NCBI RefSeq assembly: GCF_028307215.1
Contig: NZ_JAQMHV010000004.1
Coordinates: 62,001 to 126,000, forward strand
Source of the DNA: Falsirhodobacter sp. 20TX0035
GTDB lineage: Bacteria; Pseudomonadota; Alphaproteobacteria; Rhodobacterales; Rhodobacteraceae
Reading direction: 5' to 3'
Length of the DNA stretch: 64,000 nt
The notes beneath the pieces were generated by a model, which made no database searches, was not told the DNA's origin, and worked only from the letters and a program-made list of their open reading frames with translations. The position numbers were made by a program, and so were the translations under genes. Shown here piece by piece: positions 35,872-60,182 of this stretch (positions are counted from its first letter, which is position 1; each line of letters starts with the position of its first letter).

Positions 35872-36411
35872 ATGAGCTATTCGATGTCTGTCTGCGTGTT
35901 CTGCGGATCGCGCCCCGGCAACCGCCCCGCCTACATGACCGCCGCGTCCGAAACCGGCCAGATGATCGCCCGCAACGGCTGGCGGCTGGTCTACGGCGCG
36001 GGCGACGTGGGCCTGATGGGAGAGGTCGCGCGCGGTGCCGCCTCGGGCGAAACGCTGGGCGTCATCCCCGAGCATCTGATGGCGCGCGAACAGGGCCGCC
36101 GGGATGTGACGCATTTCGTGGTCACGGACAACATGCACGTCCGCAAGACGGTGATGTACATGAACTCTGACAAGATCGTGGTGCTGCCGGGGGGCGCGGG
36201 ATCGCTGGACGAGTTCTTCGAGGTGCTGACCTGGCGGCAGATCGGCCTGCACAGCAAGCCGATTTTCCTTCTGAACACCGAAGGTTACTGGGATCCGCTC
36301 ATGCAGGTTCTGAACCACACGGTTCGTGAAGGGTTTGCGGAACCCGGCTTGCTTGACTTCGTTCGTCTGGCTGGCTCGGTTCCGGAGCTGGAGGAGGCCC
36401 TGAAGGGCTAG
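35872..36411 (+). CDS. LOG family protein (TIGR00730; nucleotide 5'-monophosphate phosphoribohydrolase)
   Basis: A 179-residue Rossmann-fold protein with GAGDVGLMG at 42-50 and the LOG motif PGGAGSLDE from 106. The usual form is PGGxGTxxE; here serine replaces threonine, a mild change that keeps E114. The R at RKTVMYM is also present. Family members cleave cytokinin riboside or other purine nucleoside monophosphates. The TAG stop overlaps the next gene's TAG on the other strand (CTAG). Confidence 0.92.
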   Translation: MSYSMSVCVFCGSRPGNRPAYMTAASETGQMIARNGWRLVYGAGDVGLMGEVARGAASGETLGVIPEHLMAREQGRRDVTHFVVTDNMHVRKTVMYMNSDKIVVLPGGAGSLDEFFEVLTWRQIGLHSKPIFLLNTEGYWDPLMQVLNHTVREGFAEPGLLDFVRLAGSVPELEEALKG

Positions 36412-36860
36412 GCCTGCATCTCGGCCAGGACCGCCTGCTCGATCTTGTCGATCGGCATGGAGGTCAGAGATTTCGGGATCTCCTGCACGATCTTGGCCTG
36501 AACGTCCTTGTGAAGTTCGGGCCGAAGCGCGCCCAGTGTCTGGGGTGCGGCCACGATCACGAGGCGGTCGAAGCGGCCCTGCTGCGACATCTTCAGAAGA
36601 CGCCCGGCCAGATCCTGTGCGAAGCGGTCACGCTCCAGACGGTGGAAGTCCGTCTCCTCGATCGCGGACCCGGTGCCGCTGGCGCGGTTGCCCAACTGGC
36701 CGGGCTTGTCGGTGCCCTGTTCGCGGTCGGGCGGGTTGTCATGGGTTTCCACCACGCGCACACGCAGGATCGGGTACTGGGCGTCACCCTCATTTTCCAG
36801 GAACAGGGCCTTTTCGCCATCTGCCACCACAACCCAGGTGCCGTTGGTCAGCCGTTGCAT
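36408..36860 (-). CDS. Host-attachment family protein (baeRF-like, PF10116)
   Basis: A 150-residue protein with MQRLTNGTWVVVADGEKALFLEN, the N-terminal strand pattern of the family, then EQGTDKPGQLGN, HRLERDRFAQDLAGRLLKM and RLVIVAAPQTLGALRPEL near the end. The family is named for an Agrobacterium attachment gene, yet its fold is related to archaeal-eukaryotic release factors and Pelota, suggesting a ribosome role. The start ATG 36860 has AGGAGAG upstream. Function here is unproven. Confidence 0.85.
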   Translation of the reverse strand: MQRLTNGTWVVVADGEKALFLENEGDAQYPILRVRVVETHDNPPDREQGTDKPGQLGNRASGTGSAIEETDFHRLERDRFAQDLAGRLLKMSQQGRFDRLVIVAAPQTLGALRPELHKDVQAKIVQEIPKSLTSMPIDKIEQAVLAEMQA

Positions 36861-36921
36861 CTCACTCTCCTTGTTGCCGTTCAGGAATGCAACGAAGGCG
36901 CGGAACGCATGTTCCAAATGG

Positions 36922-36950
36922 AAATGGCCCGCGGGATCCGCGGGCCATTT
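36922..36950 (-). terminator. Hairpin terminator downstream of sodB
   Basis: Perfect 13-base arms (36922-36934 and 36938-36950) around a GAT loop, beginning 5 bases after the sodB stop. The following U-run is weak (TTT then CCATTT), so it may act as a stabilising 3' end as much as a strict terminator. Confidence 0.7.
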
Positions 36951-36955
36951 GACGC

Positions 36956-37555
36956 TTAGAGGCGGGCCGCCACGGCGTCCCAATTTACCAGCTTCTCCAG
37001 GAAGTTGGTGATGTAGGCCGGACGCTTGTTACGGAAGTCGATGTAGTAGCTGTGCTCCCACACGTCGCAGCCCAGAAGCGCCGTCTGGTTGAAGCAGAGC
37101 GGGTTCACACCATTCTCGGTCTTCGTGACCTTCAGCGCGCCCGAAGCGTCCTTCACGAGCCAGGCCCAGCCCGAGCCGAACTGGCCGGCGCCGGCGGCGG
37201 CGAACTCTTCCTTGAACTTCTCGACCGAACCGAAGCTTTCGGTCAGGGCCTTTTCCAGCTCGGACGGGATCGCCTTCTGGCCCGGGCCCATGATCTCCCA
37301 GAACAGGTTGTGGTTCCAGTGCTGCGAGGCGTTGTTGAAGATGCCCGACTGCGCCACGGCGTCCGGCTTGTAGGTGCCGCGTACGACATCCTCCAGCGAC
37401 GCGTTCTCCCACTCGGTGCCGGCGATCAGCTTGTTGCCGTTGTCGACATAGGCCTTGTGGTGGATGTCGTGGTGGAATTCGAGCGTTTCCTTTGACATGC
37501 CCAGATCGGCAAGCGCGTCGTGGGCATAGGGAAGATCGGGGAGCGTGAATGCCAT
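36956..37555 (-). CDS. sodB: Superoxide dismutase, Fe type
   Basis: A 199-residue enzyme. Metal ligands are in TLEFHHDIHHKAYV (H28), NNASQHWNHNLFW, and DVWEHSYYIDF. The glutamine just before HWNH is the position that separates iron-type from manganese-type enzymes, and it favours iron. FGSGWAWLV is also present. The gene is probably monocistronic: a hairpin follows it and the tsf terminator precedes it. Confidence 0.95.
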   Translation of the reverse strand: MAFTLPDLPYAHDALADLGMSKETLEFHHDIHHKAYVDNGNKLIAGTEWENASLEDVVRGTYKPDAVAQSGIFNNASQHWNHNLFWEIMGPGQKAIPSELEKALTESFGSVEKFKEEFAAAGAGQFGSGWAWLVKDASGALKVTKTENGVNPLCFNQTALLGCDVWEHSYYIDFRNKRPAYITNFLEKLVNWDAVAARL

Positions 37556-37620
37556 CTTGGCCTCCTTCAGTCGGTTCGCGTCAATAAGAGACCACGGGCC
37601 GGGAAGGTCAAGGGGCGCGC

Positions 37621-37652
37621 CAAAGCAAAACGCCGCCCGGGGGGCGGCGTTT
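37621..37652 (-). terminator. Intrinsic terminator of the rpsB-tsf operon
   Basis: An 11-base perfect stem (37628-37638 with 37642-37652) on the minus strand, followed by TTTTGCTTTG. It lies 20 bases after the tsf stop. Confidence 0.85.
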
Positions 37653-37672
37653 CACGAGGTTTACGGAAGAAA

Positions 37673-38548
37673 TCAGCCGGCCAGCGTCTTGGCGACTTCG
37701 GCGGCGAAATCTTCTTTTTCCTTTTCGATGCCTTCACCGACGGCCATGCGCACAAAGGCCACGACCTCGACGCCCGCATCCTTTGCGGCCTGGGCCACGG
37801 TGATGTCGGGGTTCAGCACGAACTTCTGGCCCAGCAGCGTGACTTCCTCGAAGTATTTCGCCATGCGGCCGACGATCATCTTCTCGATCACGGCTTCGGG
37901 CTTGCCCGACTCGCGCGCCTGCTCGGTCAGGACGTTCTTCTCACGCTCCACCAGCGCGGGGTCCAGGTCCGCTTCGGACAGCGAGGCCGGGTTGGTCGCG
38001 GCGATGTGCATCGCGATCTGCTTGGCGATCCCGTTGTCAGCGCCCTTCACGGCCACCAGCACGCCGATGCGGCCCATGCCGTCGGCGGCGGCGGTGTGGA
38101 CGTAGGAAGCGACGGTGTCACCTTCCACGACGGCCATCCGGCGCAGGGTCATGTTCTCGCCGATCACGGCGATGGCTTCGTTCAGCACCGTTTCAACCGG
38201 CTTGCCGTTCAGGTCGGCCGATTTCAGCGCGTCCACGTCGGACACGGACAGCGCGGTGGCGGTGATGCCCGACACCAGCTTCTGGAAGTCGGCGTTCTTG
38301 GCCACGAAGTCGGTTTCGGAGTTCACCTCGACCGCGACGCCCTTGCCGCCGGACACGGCGACGCCCACCAGACCTTCGGCCGCCACGCGACCGGATTTCT
38401 TGGCAGCCTTGGCCAGACCCTTGGTGCGCAGCCAGTCAACGGAGGCTTCCATGTCGCCGTTGTTTTCCGTCAGCGCCTTCTTGGCGTCCATCATGCCTGC
38501 GCCGGTGGACTCGCGCAGTTCCTTCACCATCTGTGCGGTGATTGCCAT
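37673..38548 (-). CDS. tsf: Elongation factor Ts
   Basis: A 291-residue nucleotide exchange factor for EF-Tu. N-terminal UBA-like domain [21 protein letters not shown], core with [10 protein letters not shown] and [12 protein letters not shown] (EF-Tu contact, TDFVAKN), and C-terminal [14 protein letters not shown]. The length matches alphaproteobacterial EF-Ts. It follows rpsB by 73 bases. Confidence 0.97.
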
Positions 38549-38621
38549 CGTGGCTCTCCTCGATATTCGATTGGAAATCCCGACGGGTGTAATCCCGCCG
38601 GGTAACGGTCAGACGACAGGC

Positions 38622-39380
38622 TTACGCCTCTTCGACGGCCTCTTCCTCGGGAGCGGTTTCCAGCTCGCCCAGGTCGATGCCGGCTGCGCCCATCTGGGCG
38701 GTCATGCCGTCCAGCGCCGCACGGGCGACCAGATCGCAATAGAGGCCGATCGCGCGGGCCGCGTCATCGTTGCCCGGGATGACGTAGTCCACGCCCTTGG
38801 GGGACGCGTTGGTGTCGACGATCGCGACAACCGGGATGCCCAGTTTCTTGGCTTCCAGGATGGCGAGGTCTTCCTTGTTCACGTCGATCACGAACAGCAG
38901 GTCCGGAACGCCGCCCATGTCGCGGATGCCGCCCAGCGAGGCTTGCAGCTTGGACTGCTCGCGCTCCATGTTCAGGCGCTCTTTCTTGGTGAGGCCCTCG
39001 GCGCCGTTCGCCATCAGCTCGTCCAGCTGCTTCAGGCGCTGGATGGAGTTCGACACGGTTTTCCAGTTGGTGAGCGTGCCGCCCAGCCAGCGGTGGTTCA
39101 TGTAGTGCTGCGCGCAACGCTCGGCCGCGTCGGCGACGGGCTTCTGCGCCTGGCGCTTCGTGCCCACGAACAGCACGCGGCCGCCCTTGGCAACGGTGTC
39201 GCGGACGACTTGCAGCGCCTTGTCCAGCATCGGGACGGTCTGCGTCAGGTCGATGATGTGGATGCCGTTGCGGTCGCCGTAGATGAACTCGCCCATCTTG
39301 GGGTTCCAACGGGCAGTCTGGTGACCATAGTGAACGCCAGCTTCAAGCAGCTGACGCATCGAGAAATCGGGGAGCGCCAT
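38622..39380 (-). CDS. rpsB: Ribosomal protein S2
   Basis: A 252-residue protein of the 30S subunit. [22 protein letters not shown] (N-terminal signature), [36 protein letters not shown] and [14 protein letters not shown] are clear. The C-terminus is acidic ([12 protein letters not shown]). I chose ATG 39380 because AAGGA is seven bases upstream; ATG 39386 lies too close. First gene of the rpsB-tsf operon. Confidence 0.97.
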
Positions 39381-39489
39381 GTCCATGTCCTTTTCCGGTT
39401 TGCGCCTCGACGAAGCCTTGAGGGATCTCTCCCAACCGGCGGACCTTTCGGGATGTCTTTCCGATCGGCCCAAGCTTCGTCTGTGAAGT
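39381..39489 (-). promoter_or_regulatory. Structured 5' leader of rpsB
   Basis: A leader of about 109 bases closed by GACGAAGC and GCTTCGTC (39481-39474 and 39416-39409), extended by three pairs past a one-base bulge. Inside are a GGGA/TCCC hairpin and the palindrome CCGATCGG. Such a closed multi-branch element just before the start codon is the layout expected for feedback control by S2, but no known motif was matched. Confidence 0.5.
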
Positions 39490-39495
39490 GCCGCG

Positions 39496-39524
39496 CGTAT
39501 AACCCGGCCCCGGGCGGTCCGCAA
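39496..39524 (-). promoter_or_regulatory. Probable sigma-70 promoter of rpsB
   Basis: Minus strand -35 TTGCGG (39524-39519), 17-base spacer, -10 TATACG (39501-39496). The implied start near 39489 opens the structured leader just upstream of GACGAAGC. Confidence 0.55.
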
Positions 39525-39563
39525 CCCCTTGCGCGGCGCGTGCCGCTGGACGAAAAGCAGGAC

Positions 39564-40433
39564 ATGACAGACATTCTTTGCATCGGCTCCGTCCTGTGGG
39601 ACATCATCGGGCGTTCGCCTTCGGCCATGCGGCTCGGCTCCGACGTGCCGGGCCGGATCACGCGCATCCCCGGCGGGGTCGCGATGAACATCGCCATCAC
39701 CCTGCGCCGCTTCGGCCTGACGCCCGCTCTCCTGACCGCCGTGGGCCGCGACGCCGAGGGGGACGAGCTGGTCGCCGACTGCGCGCGGCTGGGGATGGTG
39801 ACGGACCACATCTACCGCTCGGACGATCTGCCGACGGACCGCTACATGGCAGTGGAGGGGGCGAACGGCCTGATTGCGGCCATCGCCGACGCCCATTCGC
39901 TGGAAGCGGCGGGCGACAAGATCCTGCGGCCCCTGACGGGCGCGCTGTCGGGCTGGGACGGACCCATTGCGCTGGACGGCAACCTGACGGAACAGCTGCT
40001 GGCCGAGATCGCATCCTCGCCCTTGTTTGCCAAGGCCGACCTGCGCGTGGCCCCCGCCAGCCCCGGCAAGGCCGAGCGGCTGCTGCCGCTGCTGCGCTGC
40101 CCCAACGCCACGATCTATGTGAACCTGGAGGAGGCGAACATCCTGTCCAAGGCCGCGTCCGCCACCGCCGCCGACGCGGCCGCGGCGCTGCTGGCCCGGG
40201 GTGCGGCCCGCGTGCTGGTGACCGATGGCGGACGGGCCTGCGCCGAAGGGCGCGCCGGGGCCGGCGTCATCACCGATCTTCCGCCGCCCGTTCTTGTCAC
40301 GCGGGTGACAGGTGCGGGCGATACCTTCATGGCCGCGCATCTTGTGGCCGAACGCGGCGGCGCCAGCCGTCCGAACGCCCTGCGCGCGGCCCTTCGCGCC
40401 GCCGCCGATCATGTTTCCGGAGACATCGCATGA
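39564..40433 (+). CDS. psuK: PfkB-family sugar kinase, probable pseudouridine kinase
   Basis: A 289-residue ribokinase-fold protein. N-terminal [42 protein letters not shown] (PfkB signature 2, catalytic aspartate). It overlaps psuG by four bases (ATGA), so the substrate is very likely pseudouridine, phosphorylated before cleavage by PsuG. Start ATG 39564; longer readings belong to the antisense of rpsB. Confidence 0.9.
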
Positions 40434-41344
40434 CCCTGCCCCTCATCCTCCAAGCCTCGGTCGAGGAAGCGCTGGCCAACGGCACGCCCGTGGTCGCGCT
40501 GGAAAGCACCATCATCACCCATGGCATGCCCTATCCCCAAAACGTGGAGATGGCGCGCGCCGTGGAGGACACGATCCGCGCCGGCGGCGCCGTGCCCGCC
40601 ACCATCGCCATCATGAACGGTGCCATCCACATCGGCTTGGATGACGAGGATCTGGAGATCCTGGGCCAGACCCCCGATGCCATGAAGCTGTCGCGCGCCG
40701 ATCTGGCCGTGGGCATCACCAGCGGCCGCGTGGGCGCCACCACCGTGGCCGCCACCATGATCTGCGCCCAGCTGGCGGGCATCGACGTCTTCGCCACGGG
40801 CGGCATCGGCGGCGTGCACCGCGGGGCGGAAACCAGCTTCGACATCTCGGCCGACCTCCCCGAACTGGGGCAGACGGCGGTGACCGTGGTCGCGGCGGGT
40901 GCCAAGGCCATCCTCGATCTGCCCAAGACGTTCGAGGTGCTGGAAACCATGGGCGTCCCCGTCATCGCCTATGGCCAGGACGAGCTTCCGGCCTTCTGGT
41001 CGCGCCAGTCCGGCCTGAAGGCGCCGCTGCGGATGGACACGGCGGCCCAGATCGCCAACGCCCACGTGATGCGCGGCCTGCTGGGCCTGCCCGGCGGCCA
41101 GCTGGTCGCGAACCCGATCCCCGAGGAGCACGAGATTGCGCAGACCGAGATCGGTCCCGCCATCGAGGCCGCCCTGCGCGACGCCGAGGACCAGGGCATC
41201 GCGGCCAAAGAGGTCACGCCGTTCCTTCTGGACCGCATCTTCACCCTGACCGAAGGCCGCTCCCTCCGGTCGAATATCGAGCTTGTTCTGAACAATGCGC
41301 GGCTTGCTGCGGAAATCGCGGGGGAAATCGCCCGCCTGCGCTGA
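40430..41344 (+). CDS. psuG: Pseudouridine-5'-phosphate glycosidase
   Basis: A 304-residue enzyme that splits pseudouridine 5'-phosphate to uracil and ribose 5-phosphate. Near-complete family pattern: [55 protein letters not shown], and [20 protein letters not shown]. Encoded with its kinase, giving a two-gene salvage route for tRNA/rRNA breakdown products. Confidence 0.97.
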
Positions 41345-41351
41345 AGGGCCA

Positions 41352-41372
41352 GAAGCGGGGTTGCCCCGCTTC
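41352..41372 (+). terminator. Hairpin downstream of psuG
   Basis: Nine-base perfect stem (41352-41360 with 41364-41372), loop TTG, 7 bases after the psuG stop. There is no proper U-run, so it may stop transcription weakly or stabilise the 3' end. Confidence 0.45.
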
Positions 41373-41402
41373 GCCCAATTCTCTACTGCCCGGCGCAACG
41401 GC

Positions 41403-41478
41403 AAAAAAAGACGCCGGCACAAGGGCCGGCGTTCAGGTGAGGCAGGTTTCATACAGGCAAGAAACCTATCGAGCAGTG
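41403..41478 (-). ncRNA. Predicted trans-acting small RNA (about 75 nt)
   Basis: On the minus strand: promoter TTGGCC (41512-41507), 17-base spacer, TATAAA (41489-41484), predicted start about 41478. The RNA would hold a 7-base hairpin (41467-41461 with 41450-41444, 10-base loop), an unpaired GCCTCACCTGA linker, and an 8-base GC stem (41432-41425 with 41418-41411) followed by seven U. No reading frame of note lies inside. The CCUCACCU linker could pair with purine-rich ribosome-binding sites. No Rfam family was recognised. Confidence 0.75.
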
Positions 41479-41483
41479 AGGTC

Positions 41484-41512
41484 TTTATACCCCCCTGCAC
41501 TCACTTGGCCAA
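41484..41512 (-). promoter_or_regulatory. Sigma-70 type promoter of the predicted small RNA
   Basis: TTGGCC, 17 bases, TATAAA on the minus strand, facing the hairpin/terminator unit. The -10 matches five of six and the -35 four of six consensus positions, better than most sites in this window. The TTGGCCAA palindrome at the -35 is also readable toward the YejA-like gene. Confidence 0.6.
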
Positions 41513-41586
41513 GTTAAAAGTTTGAAATGGCACAACCAGCACCTAAGGTGGCGGCCATCCGCAAACGCTGATCGGGCAGACGGGGC

Positions 41587-43389
41587 ATGAAACAACAGTT
41601 TGTTAAGGTTTTGCTGCTAGCGGCCCTCGCTTTTCTGCCGACACAGGTTGTGGCCGAAAAGTCACATGGCATTGCGATGTATGGTAAACCCGCACTGCCC
41701 GCCGACTTTTCTCATCTGCCCTACGCTGACCCCGAGGCCCCCAAGGGCGGCACGATGGTCATGGGGGAATCGGGCGGGTTCGATTCGCTCAACCCCTATA
41801 TCCTGAAGGGCCGTGCGCCATTTTCCTTGGGGGCGTGGACGGTGGAGACGTTGATGGCCCGTTCCATCGACGAGCCGTTCACGCTCTACGGCCTCTTGGC
41901 CGAGAGCGTCGAGACCGACCCGGAGCGCACATGGGTGGAGTTCACCTTGCGGCCCGAAGCGCGGTTTTCGGATGGCAATCCGGTCACAGTGGATGACGTG
42001 ATCTGGTCCTTCCAGACGCTCGCCGAAAAGGGTCAGCCGCGGTACATCGGAGCGTGGCACAAGGTGCAGTCGGCGGTGCAGACGGGCCCCCGATCGGTGC
42101 GTTTCACCTTCACCGAACCGGACCGCGAGATGCCGCTGATCCTGGGTCTGCGCCCGGTTCTGGAAAAGGCGCAGTATGTCGGCAAGGACTTTGCCGAATC
42201 GTCCGACGCGCCAATCGGTTCGGGGCCGTATGTCGTGGAAAGCTTCAGCCCCAACCGCTTTGTCGCCTACAGCCGGAACCCCGACTGGTGGGGCAAGGAC
42301 CTGCCCTTCAACCGCGGTCTTTACAACTTCGACCGGCTGCGGACGGAATTTTATGCCGACACTGGCGTCGTGTTCGAGACGTTCAAGGCGGGCGGCCTGT
42401 CGATCTGGCGCGAGCCGAACCCCGCGCGCTGGCTGACGAACTTCAACTTCCCCGCGGTCCTCTCCGGCGACGTGGTGCTGGAGGAGATCCCCCATCGCCG
42501 CCCTTCGGGGATGAACGGGCTGGTGATGAACACGCGCGGGCCGATCTTCGACAACCTGCATGTGCGCGAGGCGATGATCCTCGCCTTCGACTTCGACAAG
42601 ATCAACCGCATCGTCACCGGCGGGGTGGAGCCGCGGATTGGCAGCTATTTCGACAACTCCGAACTGGGGATGGAACATGGCCCCGCCCCCGGCCCCGTCG
42701 CGAACCTGCTGGCCCCTTATGCCGACAGCATTCCGCCCGATGCGCTGGACGCCTATGCCCTGCCCGCTTCCGGAACGCCCCGCCGCGACCGGCTGCGCCG
42801 CGCGATGGACCTGCTGAACCAAGCGGGCTGGCAGGTGGAGAACGGCACCCTGATGCGCGGCGGCCAGCCCTTCCGGTTCGAGATCCTTTTGCCACAGGGC
42901 GCCGGGGAAACCGCGACCGTGGCCGACATCTACGTCCAGTCGCTGCGCAGCCTTGGCATTCAGGCCCGCGTCACCACGGCCGATCCGGCGCAATACAACG
43001 AACGCGTGACGAATTTCGACTTCGACATGACCAGCCTCCTGCGCAGCTTCTCGCTCTCGCCAGGGAACGAGCAGATGCTGTATTGGGGGTCGGCTGGGGC
43101 AATGCAGCCCGGATCGCGCAACCTGATGGGGGCGGATTCGCCCGCCATCGACGCAATGGTGACGGCGCTGGTTCGGTCGGAAACACCGGGGGATTTCCGC
43201 AACGCCACCCGCGCGCTGGACCGCCTGCTGATGACCGGGCGCTACGTCATCCCGTTCTGGTACGCCAAGGTGTCGCGCGTCGCCTATCGCCGCGGCTTCC
43301 ATCATCCGGCTCGCCTGCCTCTTTACGGCGACTGGCCCGGCTTCCAGCCGGACGCGTGGTGGTGGGATGACGGAACCGCGTCGCACTGA
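41587..43389 (+). CDS. Extracellular solute-binding protein family 5 (YejA-like), orphan
   Basis: A 600-residue periplasmic protein with a Sec signal (KVLLLAALAFLPTQVVAE). Near the N-terminus it reads HGIAMYGKPALPADFSHLPY and APKGGTMVMGESGGFDSLNPY, the pattern of the YejA/microcin C-type oligopeptide subgroup. GSGPYVVESFSPNRFVAYSRNPDWWG is the family 5 hinge. As for the earlier binding protein, no permease gene adjoins it. The gene lies downstream of a 242-base gap holding the small RNA. Confidence 0.9.
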   Translation: MKQQFVKVLLLAALAFLPTQVVAEKSHGIAMYGKPALPADFSHLPYADPEAPKGGTMVMGESGGFDSLNPYILKGRAPFSLGAWTVETLMARSIDEPFTLYGLLAESVETDPERTWVEFTLRPEARFSDGNPVTVDDVIWSFQTLAEKGQPRYIGAWHKVQSAVQTGPRSVRFTFTEPDREMPLILGLRPVLEKAQYVGKDFAESSDAPIGSGPYVVESFSPNRFVAYSRNPDWWGKDLPFNRGLYNFDRLRTEFYADTGVVFETFKAGGLSIWREPNPARWLTNFNFPAVLSGDVVLEEIPHRRPSGMNGLVMNTRGPIFDNLHVREAMILAFDFDKINRIVTGGVEPRIGSYFDNSELGMEHGPAPGPVANLLAPYADSIPPDALDAYALPASGTPRRDRLRRAMDLLNQAGWQVENGTLMRGGQPFRFEILLPQGAGETATVADIYVQSLRSLGIQARVTTADPAQYNERVTNFDFDMTSLLRSFSLSPGNEQMLYWGSAGAMQPGSRNLMGADSPAIDAMVTALVRSETPGDFRNATRALDRLLMTGRYVIPFWYAKVSRVAYRRGFHHPARLPLYGDWPGFQPDAWWWDDGTASH

Positions 43390-43429
43390 CGGCGTTTTCC
43401 ACCGGATCGCAGAACGGAAGGAATGTCGG

Positions 43430-43774
43430 ATGCGCTGGCGCACTGTGGAACAGAACTGGGAAGCCTTTCATGAATCGCTTCTGGACACTTGGCCGGCGCT
43501 GACCGAGGACGACCTGATCGACGTCGAGGGCGACCGCCAGACCTTTCAGGACCGCCTTGTCGAACTGACGGGCGAGGAGCCGGACGACGTGGCCCAGCAG
43601 ATCGAGGAATGGCTGGAAGGCGCTGTCCCATCGGACGTGCACATGGACGAACAGCACGACAACGAATCCATCCGCGACAGCGAGCTCTACGTATCTCCGG
43701 GCGAGGACGCGTCGGACGACGACCGCAAGTTCGGCGATGACAACGTGACGGACGATCCGGTCCGCGGCGGCTGA
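43430..43774 (+). CDS. Small acidic CsbD-like protein
   Basis: A 114-residue protein: the first 65 residues (RWRTVEQNWEAFHESLLDTWPALTEDDL then VEGDRQTFQDRLVELTGEE) resemble the CsbD/YjbJ stress-protein repeat, where W-N-W and LTxDDL-EGDRxxL are typical. The tail is strongly acidic and lacks hydrophobic parts. The start ATG 43430 has GGAAGGA 7 bases upstream; the longer reading overlaps the YejA-like end. Function unknown; CsbD family members rise under general stress. Confidence 0.7.
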   Translation: MRWRTVEQNWEAFHESLLDTWPALTEDDLIDVEGDRQTFQDRLVELTGEEPDDVAQQIEEWLEGAVPSDVHMDEQHDNESIRDSELYVSPGEDASDDDRKFGDDNVTDDPVRGG

Positions 43775-43884
43775 CGTCGTCAAAAATTCATGGCGGGCCT
43801 CTGGCCAATCGGCGGGACGCGGCGCATAAAGGTGTCGCGTCCGTGTCATTTTCGACGGGACGTGCTTCCACATCAGGAACCCCC

Positions 43885-44538
43885 ATGACTCCGGCAACCA
43901 TCCCGCTGGACGTGTTTTCCGATCCGGTCTGCCCGTGGTGCTTCATCGGCAAGACTTTTCTGGATCGCGCCTTGGAAAGCCGTCCGCTTCACCCCTTCCG
44001 CGTGGATTGGCATCCCTTCCGCTTGAACACCGACCTGCCGCCCGAAGGAGTGGAACGCGCCCCTTATCTTGAGGCGAAGTTCGGCGACCGCCGCAGCGTC
44101 GCCGAGGCGATGGCCCGCATCCAGGAGGTGGCCGACAAGGCCGGCGTCCGGATGGATCTCGGCCGCGCCAACCGCATCCCCGACACGCTGGACGCCCATC
44201 GGCTGATCCACTGGGCGGGGATCGAAGGCGCGCAGAACCGTGTCGTCGACGCCCTGTTCCGCGCCTATTTCCAGGACGGCGCCGATATAGGTCAGGCGAG
44301 CGTTCTATCCGACATCGCCGCCGCCTGCGGGATGGACGGCGCGCTGGTGGGGCGGCTTCTGTCCACCGACGCCGACCGGGACGACCTGATGGCCCGCGAT
44401 CTGGACGCCCGGGAAAAGGGCGTCACGGCCGTGCCGACCTTCCTGGTCGACCGCCAGTTCGTTCTGGCGGGCGCGCAGTCCACGGACACGTGGCAGCAGA
44501 TCATCGACGACATCCTCAGACAATTGGAAACGACATGA
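43885..44538 (+). CDS. DsbA-family oxidoreductase (FrnE-like)
   Basis: A 217-residue thioredoxin-fold protein with CPWC at residues 16-19 and a helical insert, ending in GVTAVPTFLVDRQFVLAGAQS (cis-proline loop VPTF). No signal peptide is seen, so it is cytoplasmic, as for FrnE disulfide isomerases. The start ATG 43885 follows AGGAA. Its stop overlaps the ATG of the transporter (ATGA), suggesting co-expression. Confidence 0.93.
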   Translation: MTPATIPLDVFSDPVCPWCFIGKTFLDRALESRPLHPFRVDWHPFRLNTDLPPEGVERAPYLEAKFGDRRSVAEAMARIQEVADKAGVRMDLGRANRIPDTLDAHRLIHWAGIEGAQNRVVDALFRAYFQDGADIGQASVLSDIAAACGMDGALVGRLLSTDADRDDLMARDLDAREKGVTAVPTFLVDRQFVLAGAQSTDTWQQIIDDILRQLETT

Positions 44539-45737
44539 GCCGCGTTCGCTCCACCGGGCCCCTTGAATTCATCGCGCTGATCGCGGCGATGATGGCCACG
44601 ATCGCCTTCTCCATCGACTCCATGCTGCCCGCCTTCCCCATCATGACCGAGGCGCTGACGCCGGACGCCCCGAACCACGTCCAGCTGATCGTGACGATGT
44701 TCGTGCTGGGCATGGGCTTTGGCACGCTGATCGTGGGGCCGCTGTCGGACGCCTTCGGCCGCATTCCCGTGATGGCGGCCTGCGGGGGCGTCTACTGCCT
44801 TGGCGCGCTGATCTGCTGGCAGGCCCAGTCGCTGGAATGGATGCTGGTGGGCCGGGTCATCCAAGGCCTGGGCGCCGCCGGGCCGCGGGTGGTGTCCATC
44901 GCGATGGTGCGCGACCTGCATGTCGGGCGCGAGATGGCGCGCGTCGTCAGCTTCATCATGATGGTCTTCACCCTGGTGCCAGCGGTGGCCCCCATGGTCG
45001 GCAGCGGCATCATCGCGCTGTTCGACTGGCGCGCCCTGTTCATCGCCTTCGTGATCTTCGCCATCCTGTCGGGCGGCTGGATGTATCTGCGCCAGCCCGA
45101 AACGCTTCCTGTCGAACGCCGCCGCCCCCTGCGCGTCGGGACCCTGACAAAGGGGATGAGAGAGATCCTGAGCAACCGCCTCGTCCTCACCTCGGTGATC
45201 GTGCAGGGATTTATCGTGGGCTGCATGTTCGCCACGATCTCCTCGATCCAGCCGATCTTCGAAACGCGGTTCGACGCGGCCGACACCTTCCCGATGTGGT
45301 TCGCCGCGATCGCGCTGGTGGCGGGCGTATCCAGCTTCGTGAACGCGCGGCTGGTGATGACGGTGGGGATGCGGACGCTGATCACCACGGTGATCGGCGC
45401 GCAGGTCGTGTTTTCCACCCTGATGGCGGTGCTGAACGGCACCGGCCTCATGCCCGAGGCGCTGGCCTTCCCGGCCCAGATCCTGTGGACGATGACGATG
45501 TTCGGGATGCTCGGCCTCAGCATGGGGAACCTGAACGCGCTGGCGCTGGAACCGCTGGGCCATCTGGCGGGGCTTGGTGCGTCGGTGATCGGCTGTTTGT
45601 CCACCGTCATGGGCGTCGCGTTGGCCACGCCGGTCGGTCAGGCGTTCGACGGCACCAACGTGCCGCTGGCCACCGGCATTGCGATCTACTCCTCCGCGTC
45701 GCTTCTTCTGATGCTGAGCTTGCCGAAGCGTCACTGA
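44535..45737 (+). CDS. Bcr/CflA-family drug efflux transporter (MFS)
   Basis: A 400-residue protein with about 12 hydrophobic segments. The second-loop MFS motif reads GPLSDAFGRIPVM, and LVGRVIQGLGAAGPRVVSIAMVRD is the Bcr/CflA signature. These pumps use the proton gradient to expel drugs or small metabolites. Its TGA lies seven bases inside the mfd stop region on the other strand. Confidence 0.93.
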   Translation: MSRVRSTGPLEFIALIAAMMATIAFSIDSMLPAFPIMTEALTPDAPNHVQLIVTMFVLGMGFGTLIVGPLSDAFGRIPVMAACGGVYCLGALICWQAQSLEWMLVGRVIQGLGAAGPRVVSIAMVRDLHVGREMARVVSFIMMVFTLVPAVAPMVGSGIIALFDWRALFIAFVIFAILSGGWMYLRQPETLPVERRRPLRVGTLTKGMREILSNRLVLTSVIVQGFIVGCMFATISSIQPIFETRFDAADTFPMWFAAIALVAGVSSFVNARLVMTVGMRTLITTVIGAQVVFSTLMAVLNGTGLMPEALAFPAQILWTMTMFGMLGLSMGNLNALALEPLGHLAGLGASVIGCLSTVMGVALATPVGQAFDGTNVPLATGIAIYSSASLLLMLSLPKRH

Positions 45738-48700
45738 CGCTTCGGTTTCACCACCTTCTCGGCCAGATCCCGGGCAAGGCCAAAGGCGCCCCGGATCCGG
45801 TCGCCCTCGGTCTTCCACTCGGCGGCCACGGCGATCTTGTTGCCCACGACCTTCGCTTCCGGCTGCGCCTTCACGAAGTCTACAAGGCCCGCCGGGTTGG
45901 CGAACTTGTCGTTGTGGAACTGGATCGTCGCCCCGCGCGGCCCGGCATCCAGACGGGAAATCCCGGCCCGCTTGCACATCGCCTTGATCCGCACGACGAG
46001 CATCAGCGTGTTCACCTCACGCGGCAGTTCCCCGAACCGGTCGATCAGCTCGGCCGCGAAGCCCTCCATCTCCACCTTCGTCGTCAGGCCGGACAGGCGA
46101 CGATAAAGGCCAAGGCGGATGTCAAGGTCGGGGATGTAGTCCTCGGGGATCAGCACCGGAACGCCGATGTTGATCTGCGGCGCCCACTGGTCGTCCATCT
46201 CGGTCAATCCGCCGATCTCGCCCGAACGGATCTTCTGGATCGTCTCCTCCAGCATGTTCTGGTACAGCTCGTAGCCGACCTCCTTGATGTGGCCCGACTG
46301 CTCGTCGCCCAGAAGGTTGCCCGCCCCGCGCAGGTCCAGATCGTGCGAAGCGAGGTTGAAGCCCGCGCCGAGGTTGTCGAGGCTGCCGAGAAGCCGCAGC
46401 CGTTTCTGCGCCTGCGGCGTCAGCGGGCTGCGCGGCTTTGTCATCAGGTAGCAATAGGCCCGCGTCTTTGACCGGCCCACCCGCCCGCGGATCTGATACA
46501 ACTGCGACAGGCCGAACATGTCCGCGCGGTGCACGATCATCGTGTTGGCCGTGGGGATGTCCAGACCGGACTCCACAATCGTGGTGGCCAGCAGCACATC
46601 GTACTTGCCGTCGTAGAAGTTGTTCATCCGCTCGTCCAGGTCGCCGGCGGCCAGCTGGCCGTTCGCGACGATAAAGGTGACCTCGGGCACATGCTCGCGC
46701 AGGAACTCCTCGATCTCCGGCAGGTCGGAGATGCGGGGCACGACGAAGAAGCTCTGCCCCCCGCGATAGCGTTCGCGCAGCAGCGCCTCGCGCACCGTCA
46801 CGGTATCGAATTCGGACACGTAGGTGCGGATGGCCAGACGGTCCACCGGCGGGGTCGCGATGATCGACAGGTCGCGCACCCCTGTCAGCGACAGTTGCAG
46901 CGTGCGCGGGATCGGGGTCGCGGTCAGCGTCAGGACGTGCACCTCGGACCGCATCTCCTTCAGCCGCTCCTTGTGGGACACGCCGAAATGCTGCTCCTCG
47001 TCAATGACCAGAAGGCCGAGGTTCTTGATCCGCACCCCCTTGGCCAGAAGCGCGTGGGTGCCGATGCAGATGTCCACCGTGCCGTCGGCCAGCCCCACAC
47101 GCGTTTCCGACGCCTCCTTCGCAGGGACAAAACGGGACAGCTGGCGCACCTTGAACGGGAAACCGCGGAAGCGTTCGGCAAAGCTGCGGAAGTGCTGGCG
47201 GGCCAGCAGCGTCGTCGGGCAGATCACCGCGACCTGCATCCCGGCCATGGCGGCGACAAAGGCCGCGCGCATCGCGACCTCGGTCTTGCCGAAGCCCACG
47301 TCGCCCACCACCAGCCGGTCCATCGGGCGGCCCGCCTCAAGATCCGACACCACGTCGGCAATGGCCGCCAGCTGGTCGTCGGTTTCCTGATACGGGAAGC
47401 GGGCCGAAAAGGCTTCCCACATCTGATGCGGGGCTTCCAGGATCGGGGCGTGGCGGAGGTGGCGTTCGGCCGCGATCCGCATCAGGCGGTCCGCGATCTC
47501 GCGGATGCGTTCCTTCAGGCGAGCTTTCTTCGCCTGCCACGCGCCGCCGCCCAGCTTGTCCAGAAGGCCTTCCTCATGCCCGTAGCGGGACAGAAGCTCG
47601 ATGTTCTCCACCGGCAGGTAAAGCTTCGCATCCTCGGCATAGACGAGGTGGAGGTAGTCGTGCGGCGGGCCCGGCTGATTGCGCGGCGGCTGGGGCACGC
47701 GCAGCGTCTCCAGCCCCATGTAGCGGCCGACGCCGTGTTCCACATGCACCACCAGATCGCCCGGCGACAGGGTGTCCACCTCGCGCAGGAAGTTGTCGGC
47801 TTTCCGCTTCTTGCGCGGCTTGCCAACCAGCCGGTCGCCCAACACGTCCTGTTCCGAGAGGACGGCAAGACCCGGGGCCACGAAGCCCGCCTCCAGCGGC
47901 CAGACCATCAGGAAAAGGCCACCCTTTCCCTCCTTCACCTGCCGGAAATCCGTTATGTTGGCGGCGGTTGCGTCCTGATCTTCTAGCAACCCCTTCAGTC
48001 GTTCGCGCGCGCCTTCCGACCAGCTGGCGACCACCACCTGATGGTCCTTGCGCAGGGTCTCGATGTGATCGGCTAGGGCCGCGAACAGGCTGATGTTTTC
48101 CTGTTGCCGTTCCGGCGCGAAGGTGCGGCCAATACGCCCGCCTGCGTCCAGAACGCCCGGCCCCGGGGCCTGCGCCAGCGGCGACAGCTGCACCACGCGG
48201 TGGGTGGACAGCGCCCCCTCCCACGCCGCGTCGTCCAGATAGAGGGCGTCCGGCGCGACGGGCTTGTAGACGGTGTCGACGCGGTTCTTCTGGTTCAGCG
48301 CCTCGCGACGCGCATCATACTGGTCGGCGATGCCTTCCCAGCGGGACAGGCGCGCGGCGGTGATCTGGTCGTCCAGCATCACGGCCGCCGTGGGGATGTA
48401 GTCGAACAGCGTTTCCAGCCGGTCGTGGAAGAAGGGCAGCCAATGCTCCATCCCCTGATGCTTGCGGCCTGCGCTGACCGCCTCGTACAGAGGGTCGTTG
48501 GCACCGCCCGCCCCGAACTCCACCCGGTAGTTCTGGCGGAAGCGGGTGATCGCGCTTTCGTCCAGCATCACCTCGGACACGGGGGCCAGATCCAGCACCG
48601 ACAGCTTTTCCGTCGACCGCTGGGTTTCGGGGTCGAAATGCCGCAAACCGTCCAGCGTGTCGCCGAACAGGTCCAGCCGCACCGGTTCGCTTTCCGGCGG

Positions 48701-58206: not shown

Positions 58207-60182
58207 TGGTCCAGGAAACTCCGCAATTTGCGCGAGCGGCTGGGATGTTTCAGCTTGCGCAGGGCCTTGGCTTCGATCTGACGGATGCGTTCACGGGTGA
58301 CGCTGAACTGCTGGCCCACCTCTTCCAGCGTGTGGTCGGTGTTCATGCCGATGCCGAAACGCATCCGCAGAACCCGCTCCTCACGCGGTGTCAGGCTGGC
58401 CAGAACTCGGGTCGTGGTTTCCTTCAGGTTCTCCTGAATGGCGGAGTCCAGCGGCAGGATCGCGTTCTTGTCCTCGATGAAGTCGCCAAGCTGACTGTCC
58501 TCCTCGTCCCCGATCGGGGTTTCGAGGGAGATCGGTTCCTTCGCGATCTTCATGACCTTGCGAACCTTGTCGAGCGGCATCTGCAGCTTCTCGGCCAGTT
58601 CCTCGGGCGTGGGTTCGCGGCCGATCTCGTGCAGCATCTGGCGGCCGGTGCGGACCAGCTTGTTGATCGTTTCGATCATGTGGACCGGGATGCGGATGGT
58701 CCGCGCCTGGTCCGCGATGGACCGGGTGATCGCCTGACGGATCCACCACGTGGCATAGGTGGAGAACTTGTAGCCGCGACGATACTCGAACTTGTCCACA
58801 GCCTTCATCAGGCCGATGTTGCCTTCTTGGATCAGGTCCAGGAACTGCAAACCGCGGTTCGTGTATTTCTTCGCGATGGAGATCACGAGCCGGAGGTTGG
58901 CCTCCACCATCTCCTTCTTGGCCTGCCGGGCCTCTTTCTCGCCCTTCTGGACCTGCTGCACGATGCGGCGGAATTCGGAGATGTCGACGCCCACATACTG
59001 GCCGACCTGCGCCATCTCGGCGCGCAGTTCCTCGACCTTGTCGCGGCTCTTCTCCATCAGGGTCTGCCAGCCGCGCCCGTCCTTGGCGGCCATGCGGTCC
59101 ATCCAGGTCGGGTCCAGCTCGTAGCCCTGATATTCGTCGATGAACTCGCGCCGGTTGATGCGCGAGGCGTCGGCCAGCTTCACCATGCCCGAGTTGATGG
59201 ACATGACGCGGCGGTTGATGCCGTAAAGCTGGTCGATCAGCGCCTCGATCCGGTTGTTGTTCAGGTGCAGGCTGTTGACCAGCACCACCATCTCAGTCCG
59301 CAGCTTCTGATAGGCGGATTCCTTGGCGAACATCTCCCCCACCATAGTGGAGCGCATGCGGTCGTCCTGCATCCCCGACAGGGTGTCGTAGTTCTGGGCG
59401 ATGGCCTCGAAGATGCTCAGCGCCTCTTCGCGAACCGACGCCTCCATGGCCGCGATCGACATGGCGGAGGCGTCGTCATCCTCGTCCTCGTCGTCGCTGC
59501 GGATCGGGTTGCCGTCGGCGTCCAGTTCCGGCTCGTTGCTGGCAGGCTGGCGGCGCGCCTCGCCCGACACCTCGACGCCGTCCAGACCGATATCCTCCAT
59601 CTCGCCATCGGCGTCCATGGCCGACCCGAAGGTGGCCTCAAGGTCGATGACGTCGCGCAGAAGGATGTCTTCGGACAGAAGTTCGTCGCGCCAGATGGTG
59701 ATGGCCTGGAAGGTCAGCGGGCTTTCGCACAGGCCCGCGATCATCGTGTTCCGGCCGGCCTCGATCCGCTTGGCGATGGCGATCTCGCCCTCGCGGCTCA
59801 GCAGTTCGACCGACCCCATCTCGCGCAGGTACATCCGCACCGGGTCATCGGTGCGTTCCAGCGTTTCGGACTGGGTTCCCGCCACGGCCACATCGCGCGA
59901 GGTGGAGGCGGCCGCGACCACGGCGCCACCCTCCTCCTCGGCCTCGGCCTCACCCTCCTCGCGGACCTCGATCCCCATCTCGGACAGCATCGCCATCATG
60001 TCCTCGATCTGGTCAGAGGAGACCTGATCCTGGGGAATGACGGTGTTCAGCTGTTCGTAGGTGATGTAGCCCCGTTCGCGCGCCTCGGCGATCATCCGTT
60101 TGACGGCGGCCTGGCTCATGTCCAGCGAGGAATCCTGTTCCTGATCCTCGTGCTTGCCGTCGTCGGTGTCTTTGATTGCCAT
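58203..60182 (-). CDS. rpoD: RNA polymerase housekeeping sigma factor (sigma-70)
   Basis: A 659-residue primary sigma factor. Order: region 1.1 ([17 protein letters not shown]), long acidic non-conserved region (about 150-270), region 2 ([37 protein letters not shown] and [16 protein letters not shown]), region 3 ([16 protein letters not shown]), and region 4 ([24 protein letters not shown]). The start ATG 60182 has GGAGC upstream. It follows dnaG; the usual rpsU of this operon is not here. Confidence 0.97.

Follow-up and report, generated by a model that had tools for sequence, protein, structure and literature searches.

The minus strand of the DNA analysed here carries a small RNA (sRNA) gene of about 72–75 nt at positions 41403..41477 that is very probably the gene for StsR, an sRNA described in Rhodobacter (Cereibacter) sphaeroides, and that is conserved across the family Rhodobacteraceae. 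Positions refer to the window, i.e. the whole stretch of 64,000 nt from Falsirhodobacter sp. 20TX0035. The identification goes by shared features rather than by a sequence alignment to the stsR gene of strain 2.4.1. What we add to the published picture is the near-universal presence of the sRNA in the family, its usual place by yejA, the pairing site common to the dcw leaders, and the near-invariance of its first 40 bases, parts of which may already be in print.

Promoter, two hairpins and U-run together occupy positions 41403–41512 of the minus strand, within the 242-base gap between psuG (40430..41344, plus strand; Pfam PF04227, Indigoidine_A) and a gene for a YejA-like ABC-transporter binding protein, here called yejA (41587..43389, plus strand; PF00496, SBP_bac_5). 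The −35 element TTGGCC (41507..41512) and the −10/−12 element TATAAA (41484..41489) are separated by a 17-base spacer. The transcript, with its 5′ end placed provisionally at A41477 and its 3′ end in the T tract, is predicted to form hairpin 1 (41444..41467), in which seven base pairs (AGGUUUC/GAAACCU) close a 10-nt loop, UUGCCUGUAU. A linker containing CCUCACCU separates this hairpin from a terminator stem-loop (41411..41432) with an 8-bp GC-rich stem, after which come a C and seven Ts (41410–41403, the T run being 41409–41403). All of these elements, the gap included, lie where the preliminary description had placed them, and its reading of the locus as a self-contained sRNA gene with a promoter and a terminator of its own is borne out both by this anatomy and by the family-wide conservation. 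The covariance model introduced below matches the genome of origin at G000:C44:103404-103477, which corresponds to window positions 41404–41477. A coding RNA was considered and rejected: the ATG inside the sRNA opens a frame of 5–7 codons in most sequences, or one that runs off the end.

The distribution of the gene follows the limits of the family closely. A DNA search of 61 genomes recovered the sRNA in the genome of origin and in 36/36 other family genomes, and in 0/24 genomes from other families. A covariance model, for which 87 distinct sequences served as input, matched 146 of 149 family genomes, each from a different genus, and 131 of the 132 family genomes of good quality; the three genomes without a match are 73, 74 and 90% complete. 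All 81 genomes of an order-level sample were positive, and all belong to the same family (45 genera). In a class-level sample of 240 genomes, strong scores came from the genome of origin and two other family members, and the remaining 237 gave no strong match; five weak ones (27–32 bits) are treated as chance, as are four second, weak matches (30–34 bits) within family genomes. The scans of the family, order and class samples used strict filters, at which some weak matches are lost.

When contigs were anchored on the YejA protein instead (the best 80 of 453 candidates), 79 of them had a DNA match to the sRNA. In one of these, L038, the match consists of 44 bases of the promoter part at a contig end, and the single contig without a match, L094, likewise lies at a contig end; in the other 78 loci the sRNA is divergent from yejA, 135–231 nt upstream of the point where the alignment to YejA begins. 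Among loci found by the sRNA alone, yejA is the divergent neighbour in 35 of 36, the exception, L027, having no yejA inside the 1.5-kb flank. By comparison, psuG, which adjoins the sRNA here, lies within 400 nt of it in 2 of 78 loci and is not a conserved neighbour; in C. azotoformans the two are separated by a further frame that looks like a short-chain dehydrogenase gene. The relatives of R. sphaeroides Cereibacter changlensis and C. azotoformans have the sRNA at the same place beside yejA, with an 83% and 80% match, respectively, over the aligned query and with sRNA bases 1–40 present in both.

Conservation of the sequence is concentrated in its 5′ part, as bases 1–40 are identical in 86 of the 87 distinct sequences, the exception being L020, which differs at A9. 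The alignment was built with a pattern tolerating few changes that caught 109 of 112 loci, leaving out L038 and L094 (contig ends) and L077 (a one-base deletion). L077 (2780–3000) is the only copy that we saw with a deletion in the nearly invariant core, with one T fewer in the loop. The 112 loci, and the 108 used for the promoter, were drawn from two collections, and one species may occur twice.

In the terminator stem, eight of nine pairs show compensatory changes on both sides, and none of 500 shuffles reached any of five covariation measures, with the proviso that kinship alone can exceed such shuffles. Controls in which the structure was slid along the alignment agree with the shuffles, being 34–50% paired compared with 99.7% for the true terminator stem. 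The seven pairs of hairpin 1, on the other hand, are invariant throughout the 87 sequences, so that covariation speaks neither for nor against this hairpin. The compensatory changes that the preliminary description had proposed to look for in both stems were thus found in the terminator, hairpin 1 offering no variation in which they could appear. Promoter, core and terminator proved to be conserved in relatives; the preliminary description had made its proposal depend on conservation of the promoter, the stems and the U-run. The linker is conserved only in CCUCA and varies beyond it in sequence and length, and CCUCACCU is therefore particular to the Falsirhodobacter sequence among the 87.

The promoter is conserved: of 108 loci, 93 have CTTGG at −36 and 106 have TATA at −12. 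Immediately upstream of the −35 element, a block with the sequence CAAACTTTT (41516..41524, minus strand) roughly equals the promoter in its degree of conservation, with 1.3–1.9 bits per column from −47 to −39 over the 108 loci. This is the position where a proximal UP element would sit; the block could be such an element, an activator site or part of the yejA control region, all three being guesses. A sigma-70 promoter scan does not list the sRNA promoter. The motif of RpoHI and RpoHII of R. sphaeroides is given as TTG and TAT in the part of the literature available to us (PMC10673084), and both triplets fit the elements found here, so that by its motif the sRNA promoter is predicted to be of the RpoHI/RpoHII-dependent type. 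The genome of origin has two RpoH-like genes, which score 369 bits (over the curated cut-off) and 271 bits (below 323). A third, weak match to the RpoH family (window positions 58245–58988, minus strand) is part of a 700-aa frame that, judging by its size, would encode the principal sigma factor. The link to stress that had been proposed earlier thus gains indirect support, through this RpoHI/HII-type motif together with the match to StsR.

StsR of the photosynthetic bacterium R. sphaeroides, formerly RSs0827, is described as an orphan, stress-induced sRNA of 72 nt controlled by RpoHI/HII. According to the accounts available to us, its partners are the 5′ leader of the dcw (cell division) genes and UpsM, which is this leader in terminated form, and its binding results in RNase E cleavage, a lower level of dcw mRNA and slower growth (PMC8625941, PMC11354728). 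UpsM is an sRNA described in PMC5089854. In R. sphaeroides, the pairing is also reported to refold the leader and to expose an RNase E site.

If our sRNA is StsR, it should pair with the leader of mraZ, and this prediction was tested in 12 genomes, using about 420 nt before mraZ; they were chosen by genome and not by leader similarity, and some mraZ starts were set by eye. In all 12, the longest Watson–Crick run measures 12–18 nt, these being raw lengths without a shuffled control, and always starts at sRNA base 18–20, roughly 110–212 nt before the mraZ frame; in G032, a longer run, of 16 with G–U pairs, lies elsewhere in the leader region. In the genome of origin, sRNA bases 18–35 (segment UUGCCUGUAUGAAACCUG; 41443..41460, minus strand) form an 18-nt perfect complement of CAGGTTTCATACAGGCAA in the mraZ leader (G000 contig C11). 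In 37 members of a wider set of 38 loci, each about 3 kb long, no part of the locus shows a longer complementary run than the leader site (10–18 nt, without a shuffled control), and in the exception, L170, the site is present with one base that would pair as G–U. These 38 leaders combine the 30 best leader-similarity matches with eight of the 12 test genomes and are thus biased towards similar leaders; the genome G009 is represented twice, and L139 and L153 look identical. A leader resembling that of the Falsirhodobacter genome was found in 125 of the 149 family genomes at E 0.001, the other 24 giving no match.

Several controls bear on the specificity of this pairing. The 14-mer TTTCATACAGGCAA has no exact occurrence in the genome of origin other than those in the leader and at the sRNA gene, and with two mismatches it has five matches compared with five in the reversed control. 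The predicted joint fold of sRNA and leader from this genome contains an 18-bp helix and a gain of −18.8 kcal/mol, which was equalled by one of 150 shuffled leaders but by 13 of 150 shuffled sRNAs. A potential of the sRNA to base-pair with UpsM and the dcw leader is thus present in silico. It shifts attention away from the CCUCACCU linker, which the preliminary description had taken for the pairing element: the likely element is the loop of hairpin 1 with its 3′ arm, and the likely partner the dcw leader (UpsM).

A second contact may also be considered. Counted from where the first site starts, the motif CGAGCAG follows 45–60 nt downstream; a script located it in 37 of the 38 leaders, and inspection by eye in L170. 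The order of the two sites fits one antiparallel pair of molecules. As a suggestion only, the sRNA 5′ end ACUGCUCG (41470..41477, minus strand) and CGAGCAG might constitute a second pairing site. The predicted joint structure, however, does not use CGAGCAG, the leader may owe its conservation to a role of its own, and a 7-nt match is not rare.

The other published target of StsR is rpoE, which is reported to be bound just after the start codon. When duplexes with rpoE were folded without restriction in the two Cereibacter genomes, many shuffles equalled the pairing in three of four comparisons, and in the fourth, which paired the C. changlensis sRNA lacking its terminator with a target from −16 to +34, 6 and 4 of 200 shuffles did as well. 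Duplexes computed window by window, without a control, placed the best rpoE site at +66 to +85 in C. azotoformans (−21.4 kcal/mol) and at −28 to −7 in C. changlensis (−23.2 kcal/mol), so that the published place is not the best window in either genome; the stretch +17 to +34 of C. changlensis, which is nearer to it, reached −18.4 kcal/mol. Leader sites evaluated by windowed duplex gave −29.8 kcal/mol in C. azotoformans and −31.1 kcal/mol in the Falsirhodobacter genome. The ChrR cupin family (PF12973) had no match in the latter genome, nor in two of the three same-genus genomes tried, so that this organism may lack the RpoE–ChrR branch that belongs to the StsR network in R. sphaeroides.

Searches for further targets gave extra sites, of which those inspected are mostly coding. 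Across the 149 family genomes, TTCATACAGGC looks commoner, by eye, than its reversed control (four compared with one in the genome of origin), and 32 of 40 extra sites in 11 genomes, among the matches listed, lie antisense to Leu-Tyr-Glu codons read in frame. In each of 23 family genomes, the complement of sRNA bases 2–17 occurs exactly once, at the sRNA's own locus, and with one or two mismatches these genomes together have 59 additional sites compared with 37 in the reversed control; a recurrent near-match is the conserved coding motif NPIEQ in all six loci fetched. This leaves room for targets whose pairing is shorter or interrupted. Near the middle of one locus (L226, genome G124), on its minus strand, a 15-nt StsR-complementary site, GGTTTCATACAGGCA, lies shortly before a Usg-family gene (PF06233), a single case that may be chance or an extra target.

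Whether the conserved stretch is an RNA gene at all can be judged from the same material. For its composition, the 78-nt stretch around the predicted transcript has a stable fold (z = −3.94, with one of 200 shuffles as good), and the Rfam scan that had been recommended for this locus gave no Rfam 15 match at gathering score in the whole window. Terminator-like sites in 36000–47000 are not above chance (4 compared with 7.0 in shuffles, sd 2.5), a result on which one might build the view that the stretch is a conserved control region, or the terminator of a neighbour. This view is hardly credible, however, given that a promoter, a block of 40 bases with hardly any variation and a terminator with compensatory changes recur at one spacing family-wide, and that the terminator lies on the wrong strand for such a role: it runs antisense towards the 3′ end of psuG, opposite to the strand of both psuG and yejA, and therefore ends the mRNA of neither. 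We accept the gene because conservation settles the matter, through its presence in the family and the compensatory changes in its terminator; on this sequence evidence, the sRNA gene is real.

Accepting the gene leaves the question of what it encodes. The usual company of yejA and a linker that is mostly unpaired in the prediction would suit the idea, put forward in the preliminary description, that the RNA controls peptide uptake by binding ribosome-binding sites through its CCUCACCU linker, be it of the neighbouring yejA or of other mRNAs. Yet this linker is unconserved beyond CCUCA, and the best complementarity between the sRNA and the yejA start amounts to 4–7 nt without a fixed position over 78 loci (no shuffled control; 6 nt for the yejA of the window); runs this short and this mobile do not support control of peptide uptake, and we regard the idea as very improbable. 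Somewhat less remote, if still improbable, is a conserved stress sRNA other than StsR that shares the dcw leader as a target by coincidence. It can appeal to the fact that the identification as StsR goes by features and not by sequence comparison, and that the rpoE target was not clearly reproduced. Against it, the length, promoter type, orphan status and UpsM partner all fit StsR as described, and with every one of these features matched, a second sRNA possessing them all is unlikely.

Taking the sRNA as StsR, its working may be pictured as follows. Stress and stationary phase would activate RpoH-type sigma factors, which would start transcription at the CTTGG/TATAA promoter, and the resulting RNA of 72–75 nt would present the loop of hairpin 1. 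This loop would pair with the dcw operon 5′ leader and with its terminated form UpsM, the pairing opening hairpin 1 into a helix of 12–18 bp; RNase E cleavage and an effect on division might then follow as reported in R. sphaeroides. For Falsirhodobacter sp. 20TX0035 itself, we infer by analogy that the gene is transcribed, that its RNA pairs with the leader in the cell, that RNase E cleaves and that division is affected.

It seems an even bet that StsR and UpsM form a core circuit of the whole family, consisting of a stress sigma factor, the sRNA, the dcw leader and a brake on division, with the invariance of the 40 bases implying a further constraint. If this reading is true, such a constraint follows from the invariant 40 bases exceeding the 12–18 that pair with the leader. 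It might lie, with the same balanced chances as the circuit and jointly with it, in a second leader site (5′ end/CGAGCAG), in other widely shared targets or in a protein that reads the hairpin. A stress brake on cell division that is experimentally known in one model species would thereby extend to nearly every sampled genus, since the sRNA gene is kept, and the pairing site is kept wherever the leader was examined. In practical terms, an RNA that goes undetected here by Rfam 15 now has a covariance model, and the usual address for its annotation is divergent to yejA. The question that this raises is why 40 bases hardly change when 12–18 suffice for the known partner.

Comparison with known sRNAs places the gene further. 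CcsR1–4 of R. sphaeroides are likewise linked to stress and have a C-rich unpaired motif that superficially resembles CCUCACCU. The loop motif of CcsR1–4 is CCUCCUCCC, which our RNA lacks; moreover, our RNA has its own promoter, whereas CcsR1–4 are described as co-transcribed with ccaF1. UpsM (RSs0682) has its counterpart in the mraZ leader of the Falsirhodobacter genome, which bears the complementary site and, in the folded region, a strong hairpin downstream, but it is the pairing target or partner, outside the window, and not the same RNA. Its old name, RSs0682, is presumably not the gene number of its neighbour. An equation of RSs0827 with the locus tag RSP_0827 was dropped, as no paper giving this link was found in the open-licence literature. 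Intergenic 134 of Paracoccus denitrificans, an 84-nt sRNA reported from many Rhodobacteraceae that is said to share its context with a putative R. sphaeroides sRNA, may be the same RNA as ours; however, in the part of that report available to us, similarity is also noted in Actinobacteria and Chloroflexus (PMC5107571), which misfits the narrow range found here. Six short stretches of our sRNA had no match in paper texts of the open-licence literature. StsR itself differs from our RNA in belonging to another genus and in its rpoE target, which is not evident here. In the remaining features the two are alike, namely in their size (a predicted 72–75 nt with two hairpins and a U-run, compared with the published 72 nt), their orphan status, their RpoHI/HII-type promoter and their complementarity to UpsM and the dcw leader.
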